Below, piece after piece: positions 6,511 to 47,827 of a stretch of 51,477 bases of DNA (position 1 is the first letter of the stretch; each line of letters opens with the position of its first letter). The notes under the pieces are model-generated. The model saw only the letters and a list, made by a program, of their open reading frames with translations. It was not told the origin of the DNA and searched no databases. Position numbers and translations under genes: made by a program. Source of the stretch: an uncultured Oscillatoriales cyanobacterium (lineage in GTDB: Bacteria > Cyanobacteriota > Cyanobacteriia > Cyanobacteriales > Microcoleaceae); the NCBI GenBank assembly GCA_903893625.1, contig CAITND010000072.1, forward strand, positions 1 through 51,477. The letters run 5' to 3'.

Positions 6511-7971
6511 CTATGGCTTCTTCTTAAAAATCCAAGCCAGTCCGAGAATTCCTACATAAAAGAATAACGCCACTAAAAAACTGATTATCACTGATATTCC
6601 AAAGGTTATGACGGGATAATCAGTCGCATATTGATTTAATAATAGACCCGAACTAGAGCCTGTAATTCCTCCCGCACTCATTCCTGTACCGACGGCTAAA
6701 ATTTTGATTTGGAGTTGATAATTATTCTCTTGTTCCCGTTTTTCATGACCTAGTTGGTTTTCGGTTTGTTCAATTTCTGTAATCCCCCGAATAGATGCGA
6801 TCGCTCGATCTACTAAAGTAGAACCCTCAACAAAATAGTTGAGTTCATCATTAATTCTTTCTTGAAAATATTTACTATCCTGATTAATAAAACTGAGAAA
6901 AAAATCTAAGTTCTGACTATAATTAATTAATGATTTCTCTTTTAATTTCCGTTCAATTGTTTTTAAAGTTTGTTGATAGTTTTTACTATTAATTGCAATT
7001 GTATTTCTATAATGTTTTAAATTGCGGAGAGTTTGAGAATAGGTAAAATCTTGGTGAGATAAAGCTTTAAGTTTTTGTTTAAGAAACTTTAAGTCTGCTT
7101 CATCTAAAAAAGATTCATCTGTTATTTCCCGATTTAAAAACTCATTTAAACTTTTGATTTCCCCTTCAATTTCACCATAATAATTAAAGGCTTTTTCATA
7201 TTGTTTGAGGCTTTGCTGGTAGGCTGTAATCACTTTATTACGATAATAAAATAAATCAATAAACTCAGAATAACAATTAATAAAATCTTCACTGCTTTGA
7301 TTCTCTGTGAATAACCAAATTAAAACATGAAAGTAGGGAAGGTCTGAAGAATCAAGATTGATTTGACTTAAATTATCATATTCAAAAATAGGACTTCCAA
7401 ATAATTCCCCTTGGTTTTGTAGGGGAGGACGTTGTTGATTATTGGGGATAAATTCTTCTAAGCATTTTTGAGCTAAATTTTCTAAATCTTTTTGAGCTAA
7501 ATTTTCTAAATCTTCAATTAAGCTTTGTTTAAATTCCTCTGGAATAAAAGCAGTAATTAATAAAGTTTGTCCGAGGGAACTATCAACAAATTCGGGTAAA
7601 AATATCTGATCTCGATTAATTTCTCGGAAAAAATTTAACGATATTTCTTCTGTTTTTTTGCCGTTTTCCTGTTCGGGACGACGTAAATTAAACGCTACAG
7701 CATAACTATCATAAAGACATTGGGGATAAATCCTGACCGTAATGGGAATTTCACTATTAGGGAGTTTTTCGTCTATTTTAATCGGTGAAATTTTAAAGGT
7801 TTCGTCAACCAGATTTAACCGTTCTGAAAAATGCAGACTTTCTAAGATTTGATTACACTTATCCCAAAGTTTTTGAGGGTTTTCAACTCTATTATTGCCA
7901 TCATCCCTTAAGACTTTCCAGAGATGAAAAGCAAATAAATGTAAATTGGGAGCATAAACTTTTTCTATCAT
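6511..7971 (-). CDS. Uncharacterised membrane-anchored protein in CHAT operon
   Basis: I do not recognise this 486-residue protein. The first ~250 residues are soluble and mixed alpha/beta, with no motif I can name. Residues about 250-400 are charged helices likely to form coiled coils. The C-terminus has a Gly/Ser-rich hydrophobic segment (TGMSAGGITGSSSGLLL) followed by a long hydrophobic stretch (about 450-482) ending in FKKKP, so the protein is probably anchored by one or two C-terminal helices with the body in the cytosol. An 8-residue tandem repeat (DLENLAQK twice, near 155-170) comes from a 24-bp DNA duplication. It starts one base after the stop of the 147-aa gene, so translation is probably coupled, and it is the third gene after the TPR-CHAT protease. 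It is a plausible effector or substrate, which is inference. Confidence 0.65.
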   Translation of the reverse strand: MIEKVYAPNLHLFAFHLWKVLRDDGNNRVENPQKLWDKCNQILESLHFSERLNLVDETFKISPIKIDEKLPNSEIPITVRIYPQCLYDSYAVAFNLRRPEQENGKKTEEISLNFFREINRDQIFLPEFVDSSLGQTLLITAFIPEEFKQSLIEDLENLAQKDLENLAQKCLEEFIPNNQQRPPLQNQGELFGSPIFEYDNLSQINLDSSDLPYFHVLIWLFTENQSSEDFINCYSEFIDLFYYRNKVITAYQQSLKQYEKAFNYYGEIEGEIKSLNEFLNREITDESFLDEADLKFLKQKLKALSHQDFTYSQTLRNLKHYRNTIAINSKNYQQTLKTIERKLKEKSLINYSQNLDFFLSFINQDSKYFQERINDELNYFVEGSTLVDRAIASIRGITEIEQTENQLGHEKREQENNYQLQIKILAVGTGMSAGGITGSSSGLLLNQYATDYPVITFGISVIISFLVALFFYVGILGLAWIFKKKP

Positions 7972-7972
7972 C

Positions 7973-8416
7973 TTAACGATTAATCCATTGGCTTAAAATT
8001 TGCTTAACATAATCCAAAATAGGAACTTTAACCGGACAATTTTCGCCGATTTCAGAGGTAGGAGTAATTAAAATTCTAACTTCAGAATAGGAATTTTCTG
8101 ATTGAGAATATTCTGAGGTTTCAAGTTGAAAATTAGGAATAATCCAGCGATCTTTATGGGGTTCAGAATCACTAATTTCATCGAGTTCTTTTCGCTCTTT
8201 TCGTTTGGCTTTATCATATTCTTTTAACTGTTGCTCAGAAACTCCTCCACACCATTCTTTAATAGAATTTGCAGCTTGTTGAATTTCACCAGGCTCTAAA
8301 TTTTCCAGTTGTTCTAATAATCGGGTTAAACTGGATTTATCCTGATCTTGAAGAATGGGAGGTTGAATTTCTAACAGTTCTAAAAAACAAACTAGGGTTT
8401 CAATAGAGTCTTGCAT
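7973..8416 (-). CDS. Uncharacterised 147-aa protein between CHAT protease and membrane protein
   Basis: No known family is recognised. The N-terminal ~70 residues (IETLVCFLELLEIQ, LTRLLEQLENLEPGEIQQAANSI) look like a compact helical bundle. A very charged linker follows (KAKRKERKELDE), then a likely beta region (WIIPNFQLE, EVRILITPTSEIG) and a final helix. The size and helical head would suit an adaptor between sensor and effector, but that is inference. The ATG at 8416 has GAGGG nearby upstream. The gene lies 52 bp after the CHAT gene, and its stop TAA is separated by one base from the ATG of the next gene. Confidence 0.65.
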   Translation of the reverse strand: MQDSIETLVCFLELLEIQPPILQDQDKSSLTRLLEQLENLEPGEIQQAANSIKEWCGGVSEQQLKEYDKAKRKERKELDEISDSEPHKDRWIIPNFQLETSEYSQSENSYSEVRILITPTSEIGENCPVKVPILDYVKQILSQWINR

Positions 8417-8468
8417 TATTTATTCCCTCAACGAATTGACAATAATAGAAGATCAAGATAATTTTAAC

Positions 8469-11400
8469 CTATTTTCCAATTGCACAAAAACCTGCCCAAT
8501 AATAAGCTTCTTTAAAAGGTTGATAGGTTGATGAATACAACCCTAAGTTTAGCTGTTGACGAAGTTTTTGTTTGGATTCTGGTTTTAATTGTAGCTCATA
8601 CAACCATTTTAGGAGGTTTTCTTTATCAACGGTTCTTAACCAGCTTTGGGCTTGATTTAAGGCCAAACTCACGGACTTTTCAGACGGGAACAGTTCATAA
8701 AACTTAATCATTAAAATCGCCGTTGCTAAATCACTGACTCGCCATAAACTACAAATCACATTTTTAACCCCCGCAAACAGAAACCCACTGGGAAGACTAA
8801 TATATTCTTCTAAAGTCTGATCAAATTGTGTTAACCCCGTTTCACAGGCGGATAATATCACCAGTTCCCCTTTTGGGAAATATAAACTAAAGATTTCGCG
8901 GAGGGTATAACATTGCTCGGTATCGACTTGTTTACCTTTTCTCCAAGGAAGATAACGCTTGGTTTCTTGAACTTCTGACCCCCCCTCAGTCCCCCCCTTA
9001 CTAAGGTGGGGAAGATTAGACCCTCCCTCAGTTCCCCGCTTATCAAGGCGAAGATTAGACCCCCCCTCAGTCCCCCCCTTATCAAGGTGGGGAAGATTAG
9101 ACCCCCCTTTACCAAGGGGAAGATCAGAAAGTTCTTCACTCCCCACCTTACCAAGGGGGGGCTGGGGGGGGTCAACCACCGCACCTGCTAAAATTAAATG
9201 GGATAATAACGGAGACTCAAAGTTAAACGACCCGTGACAAGCAAAGTGGAGATAATTGGCATCTCGAAAGAGGTCACTATTGGGGGGTTGAGTCAGGGCG
9301 ATTTTAGTAGCTTGTTCACGCGATAAAATATTATTAGCGGTAAATTTAGATGCGATCACATCCACTTCTAATTCTGCAAAGTCTAAGTCTTTTGTTGGAT
9401 TTTGAATGGCAAATAATTGAATATTATTAACAGCATAGTCTGGATTTTCTTCCCGCAAGGCAATATTTTCTAACGACATTAACCCCATTTGCAAACTCGG
9501 TAAATATTGCACCCCCTGAGAAAATTGATCAAACAAACAGACGGTTTTTTCGTTATCTTTAGCAACGGGTAAAGCATGGAGAGGAAATAAATGTAATTCT
9601 CGATAGGGAACTAAGATTAACCGTTGACAAGTGGGCGGTATTTTGCTTAAAATATGATTAATGTTCAGAATTTTGGCTAATTCTTCTAAAAACGGTTCTA
9701 ACTGATTTTCCCAGATGTCGGTTTTGCTATTATAGGTTTCTAAATAGCGATCGCGCAATTCCACCACTGCCGTCACCGCTTCCGGTTTTGATTGCCAATA
9801 ATCCATCGAAAAACCATTAACTAAATTTTCACCCTCAACAACACTCTCACTGTCATTACTCTCACTGTCATTCTGAGCGCAGCGAAGAATCTCTGAGATG
9901 TTTCGCTCCTCTGCGTTACGCTCAACATGACACGGGGAATCTGCCCAAACTATAAACGCATAAATCCCTTCCGACGCGATAAACCATTCCACTAAGGCCG
10001 TTTTCTCTGGCAATAATGACGGAATTTCTGATAGATTAATCCGTTGCACCCGTTGGGTATATTCAAAAGTGGAATCAAAGGTTTTAATCTGTTCTAAAAC
10101 TTGATTTAATTCCTGCTTTTGCTGAACCAAAGTTTCCCGAATTTGATTAATAGAATCAATCGGAAGATTAACAGCACCCGCACTTCGACTTTGAGGAGAA
10201 TCTGGATCAATACCAGCAGTCGGAATATCGCCGCCTAAAGATTCGATAAACCGTTGATTGGCAGAAAGTTCCCGACGCAACTGTTCTAACCGTTGACAAA
10301 TCTCTGGTGGGGTATTTTTCGGCAATAAATCTCGGTTAACCAAGAGTTCAATTAAACTGCGAGACTTGCCGCGCTCCAGGGTTACTAAGGCTTGATCGAT
10401 CTGTTTCTGATGCAGATAAGCTTGGACAAGGCGTTCATAAACCCGAACATTTTCACGCCGTCGCTGTTGTTTATTGGCGTCGGAGCGATCGCGGTGACAG
10501 AGTTCTTCTAAAGCATCCAGGGCGGCTTCATAGCCCGTAATAGCCCGTTGCCAGTTTTCCACCTCAAAGGCAGTATTACCCAAATTACGCCCGATCAATA
10601 AATATTGTACCGGAAACTTCAGGGGAGAAGATAAAGCTAAGGCAGATTGCCACGTTTCCAAGGCTTGGGGGATTTGTTGCAGGTTCTTGTAGGTAGATGC
10701 CAAGCCATTCAGACTATGAAATTCTCCCCGACGATCTCCTCCGATTTCCCGTGCCATCGTTAAATACTGCTGATGATAGTCAATGGCTTGTTGATATTGC
10801 CCCAAGTCATCGTAAACATTGCCCAAATTAGCCAGAGCATAGCCTTCTCCCTGACGATCTCCGATTTCCTGTGAAATCGTTAAAGCTTGCTGATGATAGT
10901 CGATAGCTTGTTGATACTGCCCCAAGGAATGGTAAGTATTGCCCAAATTGACCAGAGTATAGCCTTCTCCCCCACCTTCTCCGATTTCACGGAAAATAGT
11001 TAAAGCCTGCTGATGATAGTCGATGGCTTGTTGATATTGCCCCAAGGAATAGTAACCATTGCCCAAATCGTTTAGAGTATTGCCTTCTCCCCCACGTTCT
11101 CCGATTTCGCGGAAAATAGTTAAAGCCTGCTGAGAATAGTCAATGGCTTGTTGATACTGCCCCAATTTATTGTAAGCAACGCCTAAACTACCCAGAGCAT
11201 TGCCTTCTCCCTGACGATCTCTGATTTCCTGTGAAATCGTTAAAGCCTGCTGATAATAGTCGATGGCTTGTTGATATTGCCCCAAGTCATCGTAAACATT
11301 GCCCAAATTGCCCAGATTCAAGGCTTCTCCCCTACGATCTCCAATTTCCCGTAAAATCGTTAAAGCCTGTTGATCATAGTCGATGGCTGGTTGATATTGC

Positions 11401-12071
11401 CCCAAGAAATTGTAAGCACTGCCCAAACGGTTGAGAGCATTGCCTTCTCCCTGACGATCTCCGATTTCGCGTAAAATCGTTAAAGCCTGTTGATAATAGT
11501 CGATGGCTGGTTGATATTGCCCCAAGGAATAGTAAGCATTGCCCAAACCAATTAGAGGATTACCTTCTCCCTGATGATCTCCGATTTTCCGATAAATTGT
11601 TAAAGCCTGCTGATTGAATTCAATCGCCTGTTGATATTCTCCCAAGTTATAGTAAGCAAGGCTTAAATTATTGAGAGCTTTTACCTCAAGAGAGCAATCT
11701 TTGATTTCCCCTGATATTATTAAAGACTGCTGCCAAAATTGTAACGCCTGTCGATATTCTCCCAATTTATAGTAAGCAAGGCCTAAATTATTGAGAGCTT
11801 TTGCTTCAAGAGAGCGATCTTTGATTTCCCCTGATATTGTTAAAGACTGCTGCCAAAATTGTAACGCTTTTTGATATTGCCCCAAGTTATCGTAAGCAAT
11901 GCCTAAACGGTTGAGAGCATTGCCTTCTCCCTGACGATCTCCGATTTCCTGATAAATGGTTAAAGCTTGCTGCCAGGATTGTAACCCTTGGCGATATTGA
12001 CCATGATCATATTCCTCAATTCCTTGATTGAATAAGCGATCCGCTTCAGCTTTTTGCTGTTCTGGGGTCAT
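8469..12071 (-). CDS. TPR-repeat CHAT-domain protease
   Basis: This 1200-residue protein has about twelve tetratricopeptide repeats of 40 residues each (about 10-490; consensus includes YxxLGQYQQAIDYxQQALTI and REIGDRQGEG), a helical linker (to about 690), and a C-terminal CHAT (caspase HetF-associated with TPRs) cysteine-protease domain. The catalytic dyad is visible as HFACHG (His946) and LSACETG (Cys1076). TPR-CHAT proteins are known as proteases activated by partner binding, including those coupled to type III-E CRISPR. Two foreign-looking segments interrupt the domain: one encoding CHVERNAEERN and ILRCAQND (about 714-735), and one of about 64 residues rich in LPHLDKGGTEGG (about 968-1031) between His and Cys. 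AGGAA precedes the ATG. It is the first gene of a three-gene operon. Confidence 0.93.
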   Translation of the reverse strand: MTPEQQKAEADRLFNQGIEEYDHGQYRQGLQSWQQALTIYQEIGDRQGEGNALNRLGIAYDNLGQYQKALQFWQQSLTISGEIKDRSLEAKALNNLGLAYYKLGEYRQALQFWQQSLIISGEIKDCSLEVKALNNLSLAYYNLGEYQQAIEFNQQALTIYRKIGDHQGEGNPLIGLGNAYYSLGQYQPAIDYYQQALTILREIGDRQGEGNALNRLGSAYNFLGQYQPAIDYDQQALTILREIGDRRGEALNLGNLGNVYDDLGQYQQAIDYYQQALTISQEIRDRQGEGNALGSLGVAYNKLGQYQQAIDYSQQALTIFREIGERGGEGNTLNDLGNGYYSLGQYQQAIDYHQQALTIFREIGEGGGEGYTLVNLGNTYHSLGQYQQAIDYHQQALTISQEIGDRQGEGYALANLGNVYDDLGQYQQAIDYHQQYLTMAREIGGDRRGEFHSLNGLASTYKNLQQIPQALETWQSALALSSPLKFPVQYLLIGRNLGNTAFEVENWQRAITGYEAALDALEELCHRDRSDANKQQRRRENVRVYERLVQAYLHQKQIDQALVTLERGKSRSLIELLVNRDLLPKNTPPEICQRLEQLRRELSANQRFIESLGGDIPTAGIDPDSPQSRSAGAVNLPIDSINQIRETLVQQKQELNQVLEQIKTFDSTFEYTQRVQRINLSEIPSLLPEKTALVEWFIASEGIYAFIVWADSPCHVERNAEERNISEILRCAQNDSESNDSESVVEGENLVNGFSMDYWQSKPEAVTAVVELRDRYLETYNSKTDIWENQLEPFLEELAKILNINHILSKIPPTCQRLILVPYRELHLFPLHALPVAKDNEKTVCLFDQFSQGVQYLPSLQMGLMSLENIALREENPDYAVNNIQLFAIQNPTKDLDFAELEVDVIASKFTANNILSREQATKIALTQPPNSDLFRDANYLHFACHGSFNFESPLLSHLILAGAVVDPPQPPLGKVGSEELSDLPLGKGGSNLPHLDKGGTEGGSNLRLDKRGTEGGSNLPHLSKGGTEGGSEVQETKRYLPWRKGKQVDTEQCYTLREIFSLYFPKGELVILSACETGLTQFDQTLEEYISLPSGFLFAGVKNVICSLWRVSDLATAILMIKFYELFPSEKSVSLALNQAQSWLRTVDKENLLKWLYELQLKPESKQKLRQQLNLGLYSSTYQPFKEAYYWAGFCAIGK
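8979..9170. repeat. Palindromic G/C-run repeats inserted in frame in the CHAT gene
   Basis: Three near-identical copies lie at 8979-9020 (42 bp), 9021-9059 (39 bp) and 9060-9101 (42 bp), followed by partial copies to about 9170. Each joins CCCCCCCTCAGT to a CCTTA-CAAGGTGGGG palindrome and GAAGATTAGA. All full copies are multiples of three, so the host gene stays open and gains PHLDKGGTEGGSN-type peptides. The edge encodes PPQPPLGK, a peptide I associate with this intergenic repeat family when it is read through. Confidence 0.85.
9867..9931. repeat. ILRCAQND-type palindromic repeat inside the CHAT gene
   Basis: The arms GTCATTCTGAGCGCAGCGAA and the near-complement GAGCGTAACGCAG...CATGAC enclose a centre with AATCTCTGAGATG. 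Read on the minus strand it encodes CHVERNAEERN and ILRCAQND, peptides familiar from an intergenic repeat found across many bacterial genomes. A partial duplication of its edge (ACTCTCACTGTCATT) precedes it. It sits at the start of the CHAT domain, in what should be a loop. Confidence 0.8.
10700..12040. repeat. 120-bp tandem coding repeats for TPR units
   Basis: The DNA repeats every 120 bp (40 codons), with strongly conserved stretches such as TAAAGCCTGCTGATAATAGT, TGATATTGCCCCAAG and CCTTCTCCCTGACGATCT. Several units differ by only a few bases, which points to recent unit duplication or gene conversion rather than ancient divergence alone. Confidence 0.85.
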
Positions 12072-12375: not shown

Positions 12376-12545
12376 CACGGATTTAAGAGGATTACGCTGA
12401 TTAACACAGATTAAAATCTGAACACGGATTTAAGCGGATTACGCTGATTAACACAGATTAAAATTCGGAACACGGATTTAAGATGATTACGCAGATTAAC
12501 ACAGATTAAAATCCGCGAAATCCGTGAAATCCTCTTAAATCCGTG
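12376..12545. repeat. 170-bp element with perfect 18-bp terminal inverted repeats and tandem units
   Basis: The ends CACGGATTTAAGAGGATT (12376-12393) and AATCCTCTTAAATCCGTG (12528-12545) are perfect reverse complements. Between them a 47-48-bp unit (CACGGATTTAAG, GATTACGC, GATTAACACAGATTAAAAT) is repeated three times, starting at 12376, 12423 and 12471. The right end overlaps the last codons and stop of the J-protein gene. A related short copy is at about 40706-40748. Confidence 0.8.
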
Positions 12546-13518
12546 ATCGAGGTTTAAAGGTTTCAATTTGACGTAATTTTTCATATAATTCTCGTTCTTG
12601 GGGAGTAATATTTTTAGGAATAACCACTTGAATTTCAATTAATTGATCACCTCGTTCTCCTTCAATATTCGGATAACCTTTATTCGCTAATCGTAACCGT
12701 TGACCCGATACAACCCCCGCAGGTAAACGCATTTTAACTAAACCATCAAGAGTAGGAACATCAACATCTCCCCCTAATACTGCTTCTGTGGGAGTGACGG
12801 GAATTTGACAATAAATTTCCGATTTTTCTATTCTAAAAAAGGGATGGGGAGTAATATTAATTTTTAAGAATAAATCGCCGCCATTAATTCCTTGATTTCT
12901 CAAACGGATTTGTTGACCCTTGACCATTCCTGGGGGTAAATCCACTTCTAAAGACCGTCCATCTTCTAACCGGATGCGTTCTGTTCCTCCAATATAAGCC
13001 TTTTCTAAAGGTAACGTTAATCGCGCCTCAATATCCCGTTTGGTTTCACGGGGAGTGGGTTTATAAACTGCTTTTGTCCGAGGAGAATTATAGGGGTCAG
13101 CCGCCGTCATTTGAGGCGCGTCCGGGGTGACAGTTCGCACTTCTCGGCGCCGTCCTAATAATTGATCCACAAAGGTATCAAAATCAGAAAAATCCCCATA
13201 ATCTACGTCTTCAGTTTGAGAAATTGTCCGACGACTTCCCCAATTTTTGATTCCTGAAAACGCATTTTTTTGCCAATCTTGAAACCCTTTTTGTTTCCAA
13301 AATTGACTATAATTATCATATTCTAATCGTTTTTCAGGGTCAGATAAAATATTATAAGCTTCTCCAATATCTTTAAAGGTTTCTTCTGCTTCCTTATCTC
13401 CTGGGTTTAAGTCGGGGTGATATTGTCTGGCGAGTCTGCGATAGACTTTCTTGATTTCATCAACTGACGCCTCACGGGAAACCCCTAAAATTTGATAATA
13501 ATTACGAAAATTTTGCAT
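12535..13518 (-). CDS. dnaJ: J-domain co-chaperone (type II, DnaJ C-terminal domains)
   Basis: This 327-residue co-chaperone has an N-terminal J domain (about 5-70) with the essential HPD motif (His34-Pro-Asp in RQYHPDL). A linker follows, then two beta-sandwich substrate-binding domains (about 150-320; [14 protein letters not shown] and [12 protein letters not shown] mark the two repeats). There is no Cys-rich zinc finger, so it is type II, like CbpA. It stimulates ATP hydrolysis by DnaK and delivers unfolded clients. It lies just downstream of dnaK on the same strand, and the two probably work together. The final residues (PRSRI) and the TAA stop come from the inverted-repeat element that follows, so the native C-terminus may have been altered. 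Confidence 0.9.
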
Positions 13519-13555
13519 AGGTTGAGTTTAGGTTAACGAGTTCATTATTAAGTGG

Positions 13556-13592
13556 TCAGAAACCGGGTTTCTTTTAGAAACCCGGTTTCTAG
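13556..13592. repeat. Perfect 15-bp hairpin between dnaK and dnaJ
   Basis: AGAAACCGGGTTTCT (13558-13572) and its exact reverse complement AGAAACCCGGTTTCT (13576-13590) are separated by TTT. The two arms occur again at 51086-51151. In the dnaK-dnaJ transcript this hairpin lies just after the dnaK stop and could reduce expression of the downstream gene or protect the dnaK message. Confidence 0.8.
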
Positions 13593-13597
13593 GATTT

Positions 13598-15625
13598 TTA
13601 CAACCAATCATCATCATCATCATCCCAATTATCAGTTTGAGAATAGCGACGAGAGCGAGTTGTACCCCCGCCTAAACTACTACCATTGTTACTGCGTTGG
13701 TCATAACGGGGATAACTGCGAGTCGGAGGTTCGTATGGATCAACTCGACGTTTTTCACCGGAAAAAGTTCGCCGAATGGAACCAAATAAATCATCCTCAT
13801 CGTCCTCCGTTGCAAATACGGAAACTTCCCGACTTAACTCATATAAAGCATCCTGTAAATCCACACTAATTTGATCAATTCCTCGGTCATCATCTCGTTC
13901 TAAACTATCTCTTAAAGAGCGAATTAAGGTTTCAATTCTTGACCGTTGACGTTGAGCAAATTGCATTCCATAATCTAACGCAACTTCCCTTAATTGTCGT
14001 TCGGCTTGATAGGTTAATGCTTGGGCGCGGTTGCGTTTTTCAACTTTTTCTCGTTGTAAACGGTCAACTTCTGCATATTTTTCCGCATCTCTAATCATGC
14101 GATTAACTTCTTCTTGAGACAAAGTAGACGCACCTTGAATCATCACACTTTGTTCTCGTCCGGTGGTTTTATCTAAAGCGGTAACTTGTAAAATTCCATT
14201 CGCATCAATATCTAGCGCCACTTGAACTTGAGGAACTCCACGCGGCGCAGGCGGAATTCCAGTTAATTTAAACCGTCCTAAAGATTTATTATCAACGGCT
14301 AATTCTCGTTCTCCTTGTAAGATATGAACTTCTACCAAAGTTTGGTTGTTTTCAGAAGTTGAAAAAATATCAGAACGACGCACGGGAATAGTTGTATTGC
14401 GGGGAATTAATTTTTTCATTACCCCCCCAATAGTTTCTAATCCTAACGATAAGGGAGTCACATCTAATAATAAAACATCCCGCACATCTCCGGCTAAAAT
14501 TCCCGCTTGAATTGCCGCACCAACGGCCACAACTTCATCAGGATTTACCCCTTGATTCGGTTCCAAATCAATTAAACTTCTAACTAATTGTTGCACCATT
14601 GGCATTCGGGTAGCACCGCCAACCAATATCACATCATCAATATCATTAGACGTTAATCCTGCATCCGCTAAAGCCTGTTTTACCGGACGACGTAACCGTT
14701 GAATTAAATCCCCACATAACCCCTCAAATTCTCCTCTAGTTAGGCGAATTTCTAGGTGTTTAGGGCCGTCTTCTGTGGCTGCAATAAAGGGTAAATTAAT
14801 ATCCGTAACTCCCACCCCAGAAAGCTCGATTTTGGCTTTTTCAGCGGCTTCTGTTAAGCGTTGTAAGGATTGGCGATCGCGTCTTAAATCTACCGCTTCT
14901 TCTGATAGAAATTTCTCCGCTAACCAATCAACAATTTTCTGATCAAAATCCGTTCCTCCTAGTTGCGTATCTCCACAGGTAGATTTAACTTCAAATACCC
15001 CTTCTCCCACCTCTAAAATTGAGACATCAAAGGTACCACCGCCCAAATCAAACACTAAAATAGTCCCATAATCTCGCCGTTCCAAACCATAGGCTAAAGA
15101 AGCCGCCGTCGGTTCATTTAATATGCGTTTAACGTCTAATCCCGCAATGCGTCCGGCGTCTCTGGTAGCTTGTCTTTGAGAATCATTAAAATAGGCAGGA
15201 ACGGTAATTACAGCCCCGGTAATTTCTTCCCCTAAATAACGAGTAGCTTCTTCGACTAATTTTTTTAATATCATCGCCGAAATTTCTTCCGGGGCAAAAT
15301 CCTTATTTACCCGGGGACATTTGATCCGAATATTATCCGTTTCATCCCGTCGCATCGTGTAGGGAACTCGTTTAGAGGCGGCGGTGAGGTCAGAATAGCG
15401 ACAACCCATCAGTCGTTTCACCCCATAAAAGGTATTTTGGGGATTCAAAACCGCCTGTCGTCTAGCCATCTGTCCCACGATGCGTTCTCCTTCCTTGGTA
15501 AACCCAACGACGGAGGGGGTGGTTCGCATCCCTTCAGAGTTAGCAATCACAACGGGTTTACCGCCCTCCATGACCGCAACCACAGAGTTCGTTGTTCCCA
15601 AGTCAATGCCGACTACTTTGCCCAT
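13598..15625 (-). CDS. dnaK: Hsp70 chaperone DnaK (DnaK1-like paralogue)
   Basis: This is a 675-residue Hsp70. The nucleotide-binding domain shows GIDLGTTNS (6-14), [12 protein letters not shown] and VGGATRMP; the substrate-binding domain begins near [17 protein letters not shown]. The C-terminal tail is unusual: instead of the EEVD-like or VIDAE end of DnaK2 it is Arg/Ser/Gly-rich and ends in a run of Asp then WL. Cyanobacteria carry several DnaK proteins; the length and the tail suggest DnaK1 rather than the essential DnaK2, but I cannot confirm this. It refolds proteins using ATP with a J-protein, encoded 79 bp downstream, and a GrpE not present here. The ATG at 15625 is clear. Confidence 0.92.
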
Positions 15626-43661: not shown

Positions 43662-44090
43662 ATGGAAAGAAAATGTATGGTTATCGACTCAATCAAACTT
43701 ACTGACGAAAAAATTGCCCAATATCGCACTGAATTGGCAGATAATCCTGATTTTCTATCGGCACTTGATGTGATTGAAGAATGGCGTGGAGATTTGGCGG
43801 ATGCTGCTGAATCCATTGCTACTCAAAATGGCATTGAAGGGGTAGAAGATAACGCTGATTTTCGTTGGTTTGTTATTTGTCTCCAAAAATGTCGCGCTTA
43901 CATCTGTCAACCTAAATATGAAAACTTGAGAGAAAAATATTTGCCTGCTCTTATTCCTCCTTTAACAGAGTTTATCGCAGGAGCTTTCATGTGTCCACCA
44001 GGTGTCGCAGGGATTTTATCGGCTCCAATTGCTATTTATATTCAAGAAGAAGGAATGGATAAATTTTGTCAGATTTATACTGATAGTTAA
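43662..44090 (+). CDS. Uncharacterised small protein facing the second CHAT gene
   Basis: I do not recognise a family for this protein of up to 142 residues. It is acidic and helical in the first ~95 residues (ALDVIEEWRGDLADAAESIA), then has a hydrophobic Gly/Pro/Ala-rich stretch (FIAGAFMCPPGVAGILSAPIAIYI), which could be a membrane-active or buried segment. ATG at 43662 or 43677 could be used. Its stop codon overlaps that of the convergent TPR-CHAT gene on the shared bases TTAA, so the genes run end to end. A functional link with the protease is possible but unproven. Confidence 0.6.
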   Translation: MERKCMVIDSIKLTDEKIAQYRTELADNPDFLSALDVIEEWRGDLADAAESIATQNGIEGVEDNADFRWFVICLQKCRAYICQPKYENLREKYLPALIPPLTEFIAGAFMCPPGVAGILSAPIAIYIQEEGMDKFCQIYTDS

Positions 44091-47000
44091 ATTCCAGTTG
44101 CGATAAATGCAGTCCAATAATAGGGCTTCGCAAAGGGATAAGAGTCTCGTTTAACGGTAGCTTCTAGTAGTTCTTTGAATTTTTTGTAATCCCGTTCATT
44201 ATCGGCAAAAATTTCTAGGAGTAATTGCTGAAATTTTTCGCTGTTTTTAATTCTCGCTAACTTTTGACTGCTGAAGTTTTTTAACCAAGTTTGAGTTTTA
44301 TTTAAAGTAATAGCAATGCTGCCTTCATTTAGAGTTGGCATTCTGTGGAGATTGCGATAAAACTTAGTCATAAATAAGGCTGTGGCAAGCGGATCGACTG
44401 TCCAAAGGGTACTAACGACACTAGAACTACCAGCAAAAAGAAAACCACTCGGTAAACCGACGTATTCATCGCTAATAATATTCGGATCGATTATGCCACT
44501 TTCGCAGGCAGAAAAGGTAACTAAACGACATTCTCTTAAGTCAAGTTTTTCAAAAACTTCTGCTAAGGTTAGGTTGGCTGATTCACCTAAGTCACCTTCT
44601 GGATCGGCTAATAATAAAGCTGAATCGAGAGGAGAATCATGGTTGAATTTGCCATGACAAGAAAAATGAATACAATGAGATGATTGTAATTCTTTCCGGC
44701 GGTTCTGTAGGGTCATTTCTGATGCTTCTGATTCAGCGATAATAATGGTTTTATTAGGATCAAAATATTGACTAATTTTCTTAGTTTCTAGATTGGCTCC
44801 TAATAGTGATTTAGGTGGTTTTCGTGTGGGATTTTTAATGACGAATAGACGGTTGAAGTTTTGTTTTTGTGATGATTGGACAAGTTTTAAGAGTTGGCAA
44901 CTAGGTGCATATCCCACACCCTTGGGAAAGGATTCATAGAGAAAATTTCCATTTTTCAAGCAAAGACAATGAATCGGTAAAATATGCAAATAACAGTGGG
45001 GAACAATAATTAGGCGTTTACAGGTATTGGGAATGAGCGCAAGAATATCGTCGATGTGTAGGGTTTCAGCCAAGGTTTGTAATAGGTTGGAAAGTTGCTT
45101 GATCCATTTGCATTTTTCGGAATAGTAAAGCTGTAGATAATTGTTCAGAGTGTCAATAAATGTTTGTAAATCAGTTTCTGATGATTGCCAATATTGAATA
45201 TTTCCATCGGCAGAGACGACAAAGGCTAAGATTTTTTCGCTGGTGATGTACCATTGCAACAGACAAGTTTCAGGATCGATTAATGCCTGAATATCTTTAA
45301 AGGGGATAGGTTCAACTTTTTGAGTTAGTTTGAATGTGGAATCAAATGGAGTGATTTTCTGATCAATAAAATCGTCTAATTCTTGTTGATATTCCTTGAG
45401 ATGGCTCTGATCTATCACATAAGGCATTAAGTTGTCAATACGGCTAATATTCTGGTTAATACTTTGATTTTGGAGGCTGATTTGTTCTGTAACTACTCTT
45501 TGACGTAATTCATCATATTGATCAATGGTAGCTTGATCAACATTCTTGGGTTTGACATTTTTCTGAGTCATCAATTCCACAAGGTTTCTCGCTTTACTGC
45601 GTTCAATGTATTCTAAGGCTTTATCTGGTTGATTGAGATGAAGATGCGCTTGCACAATGCTATGAAATACATCAATGGCATTAGATAAAACTTCTTGGCG
45701 ACTTTGGGGATTAAGTGCTTCTGATCGGGCATTTTCGAGGGCTTCTATGGCGAGGTGGTAGGCTTCTGTGGCGGATTGCCATTGTTTTTCGTTGTAGTGG
45801 AGGTTGGCTAAGTTACGAGCAGTTTCTAAACAATTAAGAGGATCAGCTTTTTGAGTACGAATTTTTAAGGCATCATTATAATAATTGATCGCTGTATCTA
45901 AATTAGCAGCTTTAGACCCTCTAATTCTATGAGAGTAAGCATTTCCTAGATTATTTTGTATTCTTGCCCATTCATAAGGAAAAGCATCTAAAGTATAAAC
46001 TTTCAAGGCATTTTGATAATACATGATTGCTTGTTCTAAATTTTCTGCTTTATCACCTCTAATTCTGTGACAGTAAGCATTTCCTAAATTATTTTGTGTT
46101 GATGCCCATTCATAAGGAAAAGCATCAAACGTTCTAACTTTCAGAGATTCTTGATAACAAAAGATTGCTTGTTCTAAATTTTCTGTTTTATCGCCTCTGT
46201 TTCTTTCACTATAAGCATTAGCCAATAGATTTTGTGTCATTGCCCAATCATAAGGAAAAGTATCAAAAGTTCTCACTTTCAGGGCTTCATTACAAGCTAT
46301 AATCGCCATTTCTAAATTTTCTGCTTTATTACCTCTGATTCTGTGAAGGTAAGCATTAGCGAGATTATGTTCCGTACCAGCCCATTCTTGAGGGAAAGCA
46401 TCAAAAGTTATGACTTTGAGAGATTCTTGATAAGAAATGATCGCTTGTTCTAAATTTTCTGCTTTATCGCCTTTTAATCTGTCACGGTACGCATTTCCTA
46501 GAGTATTCTGTGTTCTTGCCCAATCTTGAGGAAAATTGTCAAAAGTTCTGACTTTCAGAGCTTCTGTACAGGCTGTGATTGCCTTTTGTAAGTTTTCAGC
46601 TTTATTCTCTCGAATTCTATCAATATAGGCAGATGCGAGATTATGCTGTGTACTTGCCCATTCTTTAGGGAAAGCATCAAAAGTTCTGACCTTAAGGGCT
46701 TCTTGATAATTAGTAATTGCCATTTCTAAATTATCAGCTTTATCACCACTAATTCTAGCCCTATAAGCGAGGGCAAGATTATTATTTGCAGCAGCCCAAT
46801 TTTCAGGAAAAGTATCAACAGTATAAACCTTGAGTGTTTCTTGGTAAGCAGTGATCGCTTTTTCTAAGTCTTTAGCTTTATTCCCCCTGATTCTCTCACG
46901 ATAAGCAAGAGCAAGGTTATTCTTCACAGCAGCCCAATTTTCAGGAAAAGCATCAATAGTATAAACTTTGAGGGCTTCTTGATAAGCTACGATTGCATTT

Positions 47001-47827
47001 TCTAAATTTTCAGCTTTATCTCCTTTGATTCTAATACGGTAAGCATTAGCGAGATTATAAAGTGTTGCAGCCCATTTTTCAGGGAAATTTTTATCGGTCC
47101 TGACTTTCAGGGCTTCGTGGTAGGCACTGATTGCTTTTTCTAAGTTTTCGGCTTTATCTTCTTTTATTCTATCGGTGTAAGCACCAGCAAGATTGTATTG
47201 CATTGTTGCCCATTTTTCGGAAAAAGCTTCAAAAGTATAAACTTTTAGAGATTCTTGGTAAGCACTGATCGCCTTTTCTAAATTTTCTGCTCTATCTCCC
47301 TTGATCCTATCACTGTAAGCAAAAGCGATACAAAATTGTGTTTCTGCCCATTCTTGAGGAAAATTATCAAAAGTATAAACATTTAGAGCTTTTTGGTAAG
47401 CAATGATCGCTTTTTCCAAGTTTTCAGCTTTATTTCCTTTAATTCTATCTAAATAAACATTGCCAACATTATGAAGAGTAGTAGCCCACTTTATAGGAGA
47501 TGTCTCAAAGTTAACAACATCTAAAACAATTTTATAACCATTGATTGCAATTTCTTTATTAACAGCAATACTACGGAGAGGAAATCGGGCAATGAAATTA
47601 CTGAAATAAAAAATATCCGTAGCAATAGAATTGGCTTGTTGTGGAGTAACTTGTGTTAGTGTTTGTCTTGCCCAATCATCTAAAACTTGGATCAAATTTT
47701 CATCTAATTTATCCAGATTTTGAGCCAGAAAAGGATAAATTAACTGGGGGTTAGGATTTTCAGAGATTTTTTGTAATACTTTCAGCAAGAAATTGAGATA
47801 GTCTTGAGGTGTATTTGCTGTTTCCAT
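44087..47827 (-). CDS. Second TPR-CHAT protease
   Basis: This 1246-residue protein has an N-terminal helical region (about 1-95), about thirteen tetratricopeptide-like repeats of 46 residues (about 100-690; YxxRIRGDKAENLEQAIxxYQEALKVxTFDAFPxEWAxTQNNLGNA), a linker and a CHAT domain. The catalytic dyad is intact: IHFSCHGKF (His1058) and FSACESG (Cys1108). The repeat type differs from the 40-residue TPRs of the CHAT protein at 8469-12071, so this is not a recent copy of that gene. The distance between His and Cys is 50 residues, against 130 in the other protein. No operon partner lies downstream on this strand; the 142-aa gene is convergent. Confidence 0.93.
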   Translation of the reverse strand: METANTPQDYLNFLLKVLQKISENPNPQLIYPFLAQNLDKLDENLIQVLDDWARQTLTQVTPQQANSIATDIFYFSNFIARFPLRSIAVNKEIAINGYKIVLDVVNFETSPIKWATTLHNVGNVYLDRIKGNKAENLEKAIIAYQKALNVYTFDNFPQEWAETQFCIAFAYSDRIKGDRAENLEKAISAYQESLKVYTFEAFSEKWATMQYNLAGAYTDRIKEDKAENLEKAISAYHEALKVRTDKNFPEKWAATLYNLANAYRIRIKGDKAENLENAIVAYQEALKVYTIDAFPENWAAVKNNLALAYRERIRGNKAKDLEKAITAYQETLKVYTVDTFPENWAAANNNLALAYRARISGDKADNLEMAITNYQEALKVRTFDAFPKEWASTQHNLASAYIDRIRENKAENLQKAITACTEALKVRTFDNFPQDWARTQNTLGNAYRDRLKGDKAENLEQAIISYQESLKVITFDAFPQEWAGTEHNLANAYLHRIRGNKAENLEMAIIACNEALKVRTFDTFPYDWAMTQNLLANAYSERNRGDKTENLEQAIFCYQESLKVRTFDAFPYEWASTQNNLGNAYCHRIRGDKAENLEQAIMYYQNALKVYTLDAFPYEWARIQNNLGNAYSHRIRGSKAANLDTAINYYNDALKIRTQKADPLNCLETARNLANLHYNEKQWQSATEAYHLAIEALENARSEALNPQSRQEVLSNAIDVFHSIVQAHLHLNQPDKALEYIERSKARNLVELMTQKNVKPKNVDQATIDQYDELRQRVVTEQISLQNQSINQNISRIDNLMPYVIDQSHLKEYQQELDDFIDQKITPFDSTFKLTQKVEPIPFKDIQALIDPETCLLQWYITSEKILAFVVSADGNIQYWQSSETDLQTFIDTLNNYLQLYYSEKCKWIKQLSNLLQTLAETLHIDDILALIPNTCKRLIIVPHCYLHILPIHCLCLKNGNFLYESFPKGVGYAPSCQLLKLVQSSQKQNFNRLFVIKNPTRKPPKSLLGANLETKKISQYFDPNKTIIIAESEASEMTLQNRRKELQSSHCIHFSCHGKFNHDSPLDSALLLADPEGDLGESANLTLAEVFEKLDLRECRLVTFSACESGIIDPNIISDEYVGLPSGFLFAGSSSVVSTLWTVDPLATALFMTKFYRNLHRMPTLNEGSIAITLNKTQTWLKNFSSQKLARIKNSEKFQQLLLEIFADNERDYKKFKELLEATVKRDSYPFAKPYYWTAFIATGI
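44800..47500. repeat. 138-bp coding repeats in the second CHAT gene
   Basis: Within about 45880-47480 the DNA repeats every 138 bp (46 codons), with recurring TTCTAAATTTTCTGCTTTATC and GGAAAAGCATCAAA stretches. The copies are less alike than those of the first CHAT gene. The earlier part of the interval given here is CHAT and linker sequence with no repeats. Confidence 0.6.

Follow-up and report, generated by a model that had tools for sequence, protein, structure and literature searches.

A predicted TPR-CHAT protease and two partner proteins form a conserved module in one cyanobacterial order

CHAT proteases are encoded beside partner proteins in several described bacterial systems, and we compared these systems with a three-gene locus encoding a predicted TPR-CHAT protease, a small soluble protein (P2) and a protein with a C-terminal membrane region (P3). 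The locus lies in a stretch of 51,477 nucleotides from an uncultured Oscillatoriales cyanobacterium (the window, which is contig C72 of a genome assembly of 5.83 Mb and 277 contigs). In published descriptions of Craspase, the Csx29-Csx30 system of type III-E CRISPR, a TPR-CHAT protease is encoded with a substrate, a role for which P3 is only a candidate here. The window CHAT protein reaches 52.9 bits with the NCBIfam Csx29 model, the cut-off of which is 300, none of the eight genes flanking the locus is CRISPR-related by Pfam (two have no family), and P3 has no significant sequence match in the PDB. Bacterial gasdermins with adjacent caspase-like or CHAT proteases, as presented in PMC9612521, resemble the locus in having a protease gene beside a membrane-acting candidate and in the logic of proteolytic activation. 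P3, however, has no significant sequence match in Pfam or the PDB, and the short hydrophobic region at its C-terminus does not resemble a gasdermin domain. The two-gene BELL/BASS amyloid signalosomes of filamentous bacteria place a membrane-helix executioner beside a sensor, with CHAT as an occasional alternative (passages of PMC7889193), whereas the window operon contains no NLR and its P3, of 486 amino acids (aa), has its hydrophobic part at the C-terminus.

The MoxR-vWA-iSTAND ternary systems with bDLD1 (passages of Kaur et al. 2020, 2021; PMC7159879, PMC8195603) are linked to the locus by its own relatives: in three genomes (G459, G548 and G508), the conserved core of P3, P2 and CHAT are swappable modules located beside genes for bDLD1-iSTAND, MoxR-like and vWA proteins. 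In contrast, MoxR, vWA and iSTAND genes are absent from the window operon, which is a compact protease-adaptor-membrane version. P2 and P3 are not described in the passages of these two papers on which we draw, and the word CHAT is absent from their main texts, while the "caspase superfamily" of these authors may cover it. Other authors have reported CHAT genes next to MoxR-vWA or hypermutation loci (PMC10907252, PMC12691664), and PMC12691664 also describes a CHAT gene of Nostoc punctiforme that is co-expressed with the MoxR and vWA genes around it. For these reasons, namely the reported neighbourhoods and the possible breadth of the term caspase superfamily, we do not regard the module as categorically new. 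Among the papers listed by literature searches on CHAT in connection with cyanobacteria, with conflict systems or with gasdermin, HetF or Csx30, none describes the trio of CHAT, P2 and P3 in its title or the abstract displayed.

The three genes of the window are all on the - strand and encode, in the order of transcription, the 1200-aa TPR-CHAT protein (8469..12071), the 147-aa P2 (7973..8416) and the 486-aa P3 (6511..7971), with 52 bp between the CHAT and P2 genes and 1 bp between the P2 and P3 genes. An earlier reading of the DNA letters (the original prediction) had proposed three leftward genes of these sizes and gaps, with which the open reading frames (ORFs) agree exactly. It had interpreted them as a candidate conflict system in which the small protein is an adaptor and the membrane protein the substrate or effector of the protease. 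We examined 105 P3 ORFs, each 300 aa or longer, from 104 loci (one gene, L141/L143, was counted twice). CHAT and P2 lie upstream on the same strand in 73 of them, a CHAT-P2 fusion in 5, and a CHAT gene without a P2 match in 7; no CHAT accompanies 10, and in 1 (L143) it lies at another position within 5 kb. After exclusion of 6 ORFs at contig ends and 3 with P2 alone before a contig end, 96 P3 ORFs were decidable, and 85 of these follow a CHAT gene of the same strand at a distance of at most 3 kb, some of the upstream CHATs being fragments (e.g., 159 aa in L058 and 117 aa in L067). In six near-complete genomes, a listed CHAT precedes P3 on the same strand by at most 3 kb at 27 or more of the 38 P3 places, a figure in which the Planktothrix rubescens counterpart of the window locus is scored as a miss, yet its CHAT is present (L050). 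In 1000 random placements the number was 0.24 on average and 3 at most. Of the 27 P2 places in the six genomes, 23 are beside CHAT or P3. Occurrence of the partners mostly apart from CHAT genes had been named beforehand as a result that would refute the original prediction, which these counts leave standing.

The P2 and P3 genes are also mostly close together, and CHAT and P3 change together. Among 74 P2-P3 pairs, the 2 genes overlap in 32, are separated by 0-30 bp in 22 and by more than 150 bp in 14. Pairwise distances between CHAT proteins correlate with those between the P3 proteins of the same 80 loci (r = 0.634), and relabelling the loci inside their own genome (500 rounds) gave a mean r of 0.32 and a maximum of 0.48. 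Because the observed correlation exceeds these within-genome shuffles, each CHAT tracks its own neighbouring P3 beyond shared ancestry. Altogether, these results show that CHAT, P2 and P3 are one conserved module in which CHAT and P3 co-diverge. The converse association is loose: a P3 adjoins 27 of the 148 listed CHAT places in the six genomes, so the majority of CHAT genes must serve another function. Both partners belong to large families and are not peculiar to the window locus. The original prediction was borne out in part: the three genes are a single module, and P2-CHAT fusions and relatives in predicted conflict operons agree with it.

The module is widespread within one cyanobacterial order. 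P3 was found in 111 of 195 genomes sampled from the order of the window, and a profile search across the phylum, in which at most 4 candidates were scored per genome, found it in 47 of 386 genomes, 46 of them in this order; the single match outside it is partial and weak. The window genome has 8 P3 matches, and up to 14, partial ones included, were counted per genome. The closest named relatives found are those of P. rubescens PCC 7821 and of an Oscillatoriales metagenome-assembled genome (84-85% identical). No relative of P3 was detected in phage records by tblastn or in viral contigs by a pattern scan, and relatives were present on nine plasmid records. The two plasmids examined, the conjugative plasmid of Nostoc C052 and P. 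agardhii p4, both carry a CHAT gene followed by a small hypothetical protein and a P3 relative; the P2 profile matches the small protein of the Nostoc plasmid and not that of p4.

The window TPR-CHAT protein passes the curated cut-off of the CHAT family PF12770 (149 bits against 24), matches many TPR families, its TPR domains likewise scoring far above the Pfam cut-offs, and contains the His946/Cys1076 dyad that had been predicted to be intact, within the motifs LHFACHGS (His946, codon 9234..9236, - strand) and ILSACETG (Cys1076, codon 8844..8846, - strand). In an alignment of 80 CHATs, the first column is His in 77 and the second Cys in 78, and both residues are kept in 76; of the other 4, two lack the region in the chosen ORF and two have a changed residue or a gap. 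A tandem TPR-coding array with a 120-bp unit and approximately 10.4 copies occupies 10722..11972 (- strand). Counted by regular expression, the window protein and its three close orthologues have 10, 8, 6 and 2 units, which suggests that the array may be a fast-changing sensor. Between the His and Cys codons, a 39-bp tandem repeat runs in frame (8980..9108, - strand) and looks like an interspersed repeat turned coding. His and Cys are 130 residues apart in the window protein and 138 apart in its P. rubescens orthologue (L050); the median spacing is 68. The window genome has 29 CHAT matches, two of which are inside the window CHAT gene itself, and a second CHAT gene is located in the window (44087-47827, a 1246-aa ORF).

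In the P3 alignment, a conserved N-terminal region is followed by a long middle and by a Gly-rich and hydrophobic C-terminus. We refer to approximately residues 1-400 as the P3 core (6772..7971, - strand; the boundary is approximate), which elsewhere is fused to bDLD1 and enzymes. The C-terminal membrane region (6535..6720, - strand) comprises a Gly-rich part at approximately residues 418-445 and a hydrophobic segment at residues 461-479. In a simple hydrophobicity scan with a cut-off, this segment is the only strong one of the window protein, in agreement with the predicted C-terminal location of the membrane segments, whereas the adjacent Gly/Ser-rich stretch falls under the cut-off here. 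We scanned 99 P3 ORFs with lengths of 400-619 aa: the last 22% of the sequence contains at least one hydrophobic segment in 97, two or more C-terminal segments are present in 81, and 94 have none elsewhere. The original prediction recognised neither partner, and P2 and P3 have indeed no family name in Pfam, NCBIfam, PADLOC or PDB sequences: neither window protein has a match above curated cut-off in Pfam or NCBIfam or any match in PADLOC, and PDB sequence searches with profiles of 22 (P2) and 28 (P3) members gave best E-values of 0.09 and 0.15, which are not significant. When the 28 P3 relatives were searched one by one against Pfam, they hit only assorted families of no common kind, none of which recurred in more than 4 of the 28. 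The layout of a soluble domain, long helices and C-terminal membrane segments recalls CorA channels, a candidate that was rejected because hhalign against two CorA rows gave a probability of 0.3; no GMN motif was found in the window P3. The models of P2 and P3 were each built from three sequences (predicted local distance difference test, pLDDT, 47.5 and 45.8, respectively), and in the low-confidence AlphaFold model of P3 the middle is predicted to be helical. P2, which had been described as helical, appears so in its N-terminal part only, and its model is poor.

Leu33 and Trp55 are invariant in 22 aligned P2 members. Searched individually against Pfam, these members likewise hit assorted families, none of them in more than 3 of the 22, and no effector-associated domain (EAD) or bDLD1 family was among the best 25 of the 42 families matched. 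P2 was rejected as a diverged bDLD1 by hhalign to 11 bDLD1 sequences (probability 0.8, approximately 1%). In one respect P2 behaves like EAD and bDLD adaptor domains, the same small domain being found alone and fused to several effectors. It is fused to the C-terminus of CHAT in five loci (L044, L103, L113, L115 and L122), whose fusions are alike in sequence and hence perhaps derive from one event. A further CHAT-P2 fusion occurs in L166 and a Lipase_3-GTPase-P2 fusion in L160.

The C-terminus of P3 is exchangeable as well. In three genomes (L141, L142 and L159; for L142 the fusion was deduced from the sequence and its resemblance to L141), the usual C-terminus is missing: the P3 core stops at about the point where the hairpin would start and runs on into bDLD1, a bacterial Death-like domain, and a trypsin-like domain (Trypsin_2); a hydrophobicity scan of the L141 and L142 fusions found no hydrophobic segment. 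In L160, the P3 core is followed by a bDLD1 match just below threshold (24.4 bits, cut-off 25) and a calcineurin-like phosphoesterase domain (Metallophos). The four genomes with such core-bDLD1-enzyme fusions are all of one related family. In one of the operons (G459), genes for P3 core-bDLD1-trypsin, a 363-aa protein without Pfam match, bDLD1-iSTAND and a MoxR-like AAA protein are followed by those for a CoxE-type vWA protein, a 758-aa linker-P3 core-bDLD1 protein, P2 and TPR-CHAT. The MoxR-vWA-iSTAND neighbourhood was found at the relatives L160, L166 and L168. The proteins encoded directly after vWA in G459, G548 and G508 have N-termini that are 68-81% identical between genomes and C-terminal parts that differ, namely P3 core-bDLD1 (L168), Lipase_3-GTPase-P2 (L160) and TPR-CHAT-P2 (L166). 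By its position, the shared N-terminal region is presumably the linker that bears variable effectors beside vWA in the published ternary systems (passages of PMC8195603). Because both follow this N-terminus beside vWA, the P3 core and CHAT-P2 both take the effector place of the published systems. In three regions chosen for their bDLD1 matches (L161-L163), CHAT and P2 are near genes for bDLD1-NB-ARC-TPR, bDLD1-caspase or bDLD1-phosphorylase. In the genus of the window, two loci (L048, 4251-10221; L118, 2968-9144) lack a neighbouring CHAT and instead have a caspase-nSTAND1 gene upstream of P3, the genes between encoding a 173-aa partner and other small proteins. A partner of 173-177 aa of other P3 copies was rejected as a diverged P2 (hhalign probability approximately 1%).

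These observations led us to a scheme in which the three proteins would form a protease-triggered membrane system of a predicted conflict or programmed cell death type, a reading to which we give an even chance. The TPR array of the CHAT protein would sense or scaffold a trigger, and P2 would be a small portable adaptor, akin to an EAD, that couples CHAT to P3. The P3 core would restrain a membrane hairpin, the usual output, until CHAT is triggered and targets P3, the simplest possibility being a cut at the junction of core and hairpin; the freed or rearranged hairpin may then permeabilise or rewire the membrane. The basis of this scheme is the observed conserved operon, the co-divergence, the dyad, the P2-CHAT fusion and the P3 C-terminus swapped for bDLD1 and an enzyme. 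Cleavage of P3 by CHAT is putative and is the simplest reading of the arrangement, and a role in conflict is the purpose that the module would probably serve. The relatives in predicted conflict operons lend support to both the putative conflict system and the putative adaptor with a membrane effector.

Several results weigh against this scheme. The P3 core also occurs in proteins without a hydrophobic C-terminus, so the membrane hairpin is not a universal P3 output, and the bDLD1 and iSTAND contexts were seen in a handful of genomes of one other family and not in the genus of the window. The co-divergence is weaker when within-genome pairs alone are considered (r = 0.74 over 38 pairs, with 41 of 2000 relabellings as high). 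Among the decidable P3 ORFs, 10 of 96 have no nearby CHAT, and seven of these also have no P2 or nameable partner. Finally, the structure models of P2 and P3 are unusable at their pLDDT values. The strongest rival, which we consider unlikely, is that P3 is a membrane receptor or anchor from which P2 relays a signal to CHAT, the latter being an effector that cuts other cell proteins. This would agree with the large conserved soluble core and small hairpin of P3 and with the presence of CHAT-P2 itself where an iSTAND ternary operon has its effector (L166). However, the P3 core is likewise found in the effector position (L168) and with swapped-in enzymes, and it is effectors, not receptors, that vary in the published ternary systems.

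The module could alternatively regulate cell biology (division, differentiation or stress adaptation) rather than immunity, which we regard as rather improbable. HetF, a partial namesake of the CHAT domain, offers a precedent, being reported in PMC8406250 to be part of the divisome and to be required in Anabaena for the initiation of heterocysts. In favour of this reading, the module is common and lies mainly on long non-plasmid contigs, and three relatives carry close counterparts of the window locus. On the other hand, the genome G179 of the same genus has no close P3 (best E-value 8e-13), P3 copies are multiple (up to 14 matches, partial ones included), some of them decayed and some on plasmids, and Death-like, iSTAND and caspase genes adjoin related loci. 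That the genes are accidental neighbours, TPR-CHAT genes being so numerous (26-59 matches in each of the six near-complete genomes), has almost no probability: it is contradicted by the counts (0.24 of 38 under random placement against at least 27 of 38 observed) and by a gene order, overlaps and fusions that recur.

The eight genes flanking the window locus encode, by Pfam, DnaJ, Hsp70, a histidine kinase, an SBD_N/NBD_C protein, a P-type ATPase, an amine oxidase and two proteins without family, and none of them is a MoxR, vWA or iSTAND gene. The DnaJ and Hsp70 genes (12535-15625) share the strand of the CHAT gene and lie 463 bp upstream of it. Promoter and terminator scans at the locus gave results no better than shuffle level. 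Other P3 loci have neighbourhoods of their own. Four P3 genes without CHAT (L071, L073, L075 and L078), from four genomes of one family, have like neighbourhoods with genes of 108 aa and 511 to 513 aa upstream, and any protease partner of these P3 proteins must be elsewhere. A gene of approximately 300 aa directly follows P3 in L131 (2041-2952), L138 (2108-3001) and L135 (8368-9279), at 39, -1 and 32 bp, respectively; in L131 and L138 it encodes an RNase H by Pfam. In L167 (776-14167), four tandem TPR-CHAT-type genes precede a P3 core-bDLD1-trypsin gene.

To our knowledge, few substrates of cyanobacterial CHAT proteases are known, and the fixed partner pair beside some CHAT genes provides a testable substrate and adaptor for those proteases. 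The replacement of the hairpin by bDLD1 and an enzyme on one core suggests a way in which bacterial cell-death machines are put together from exchangeable parts. A broader proposal, which we put forward tentatively and hold to be somewhat short of an even chance, is that CHAT-P2-P3 is a widespread cyanobacterial death switch, in which P2 would be a new adaptor family and the P3 core a new module carrying either a hairpin or a Death-like-domain/enzyme output, one chassis for minimal and iSTAND systems alike. If true, the module would be the missing link that connects caspase-like proteases with Death-like adaptors and with membrane executioners in bacteria.

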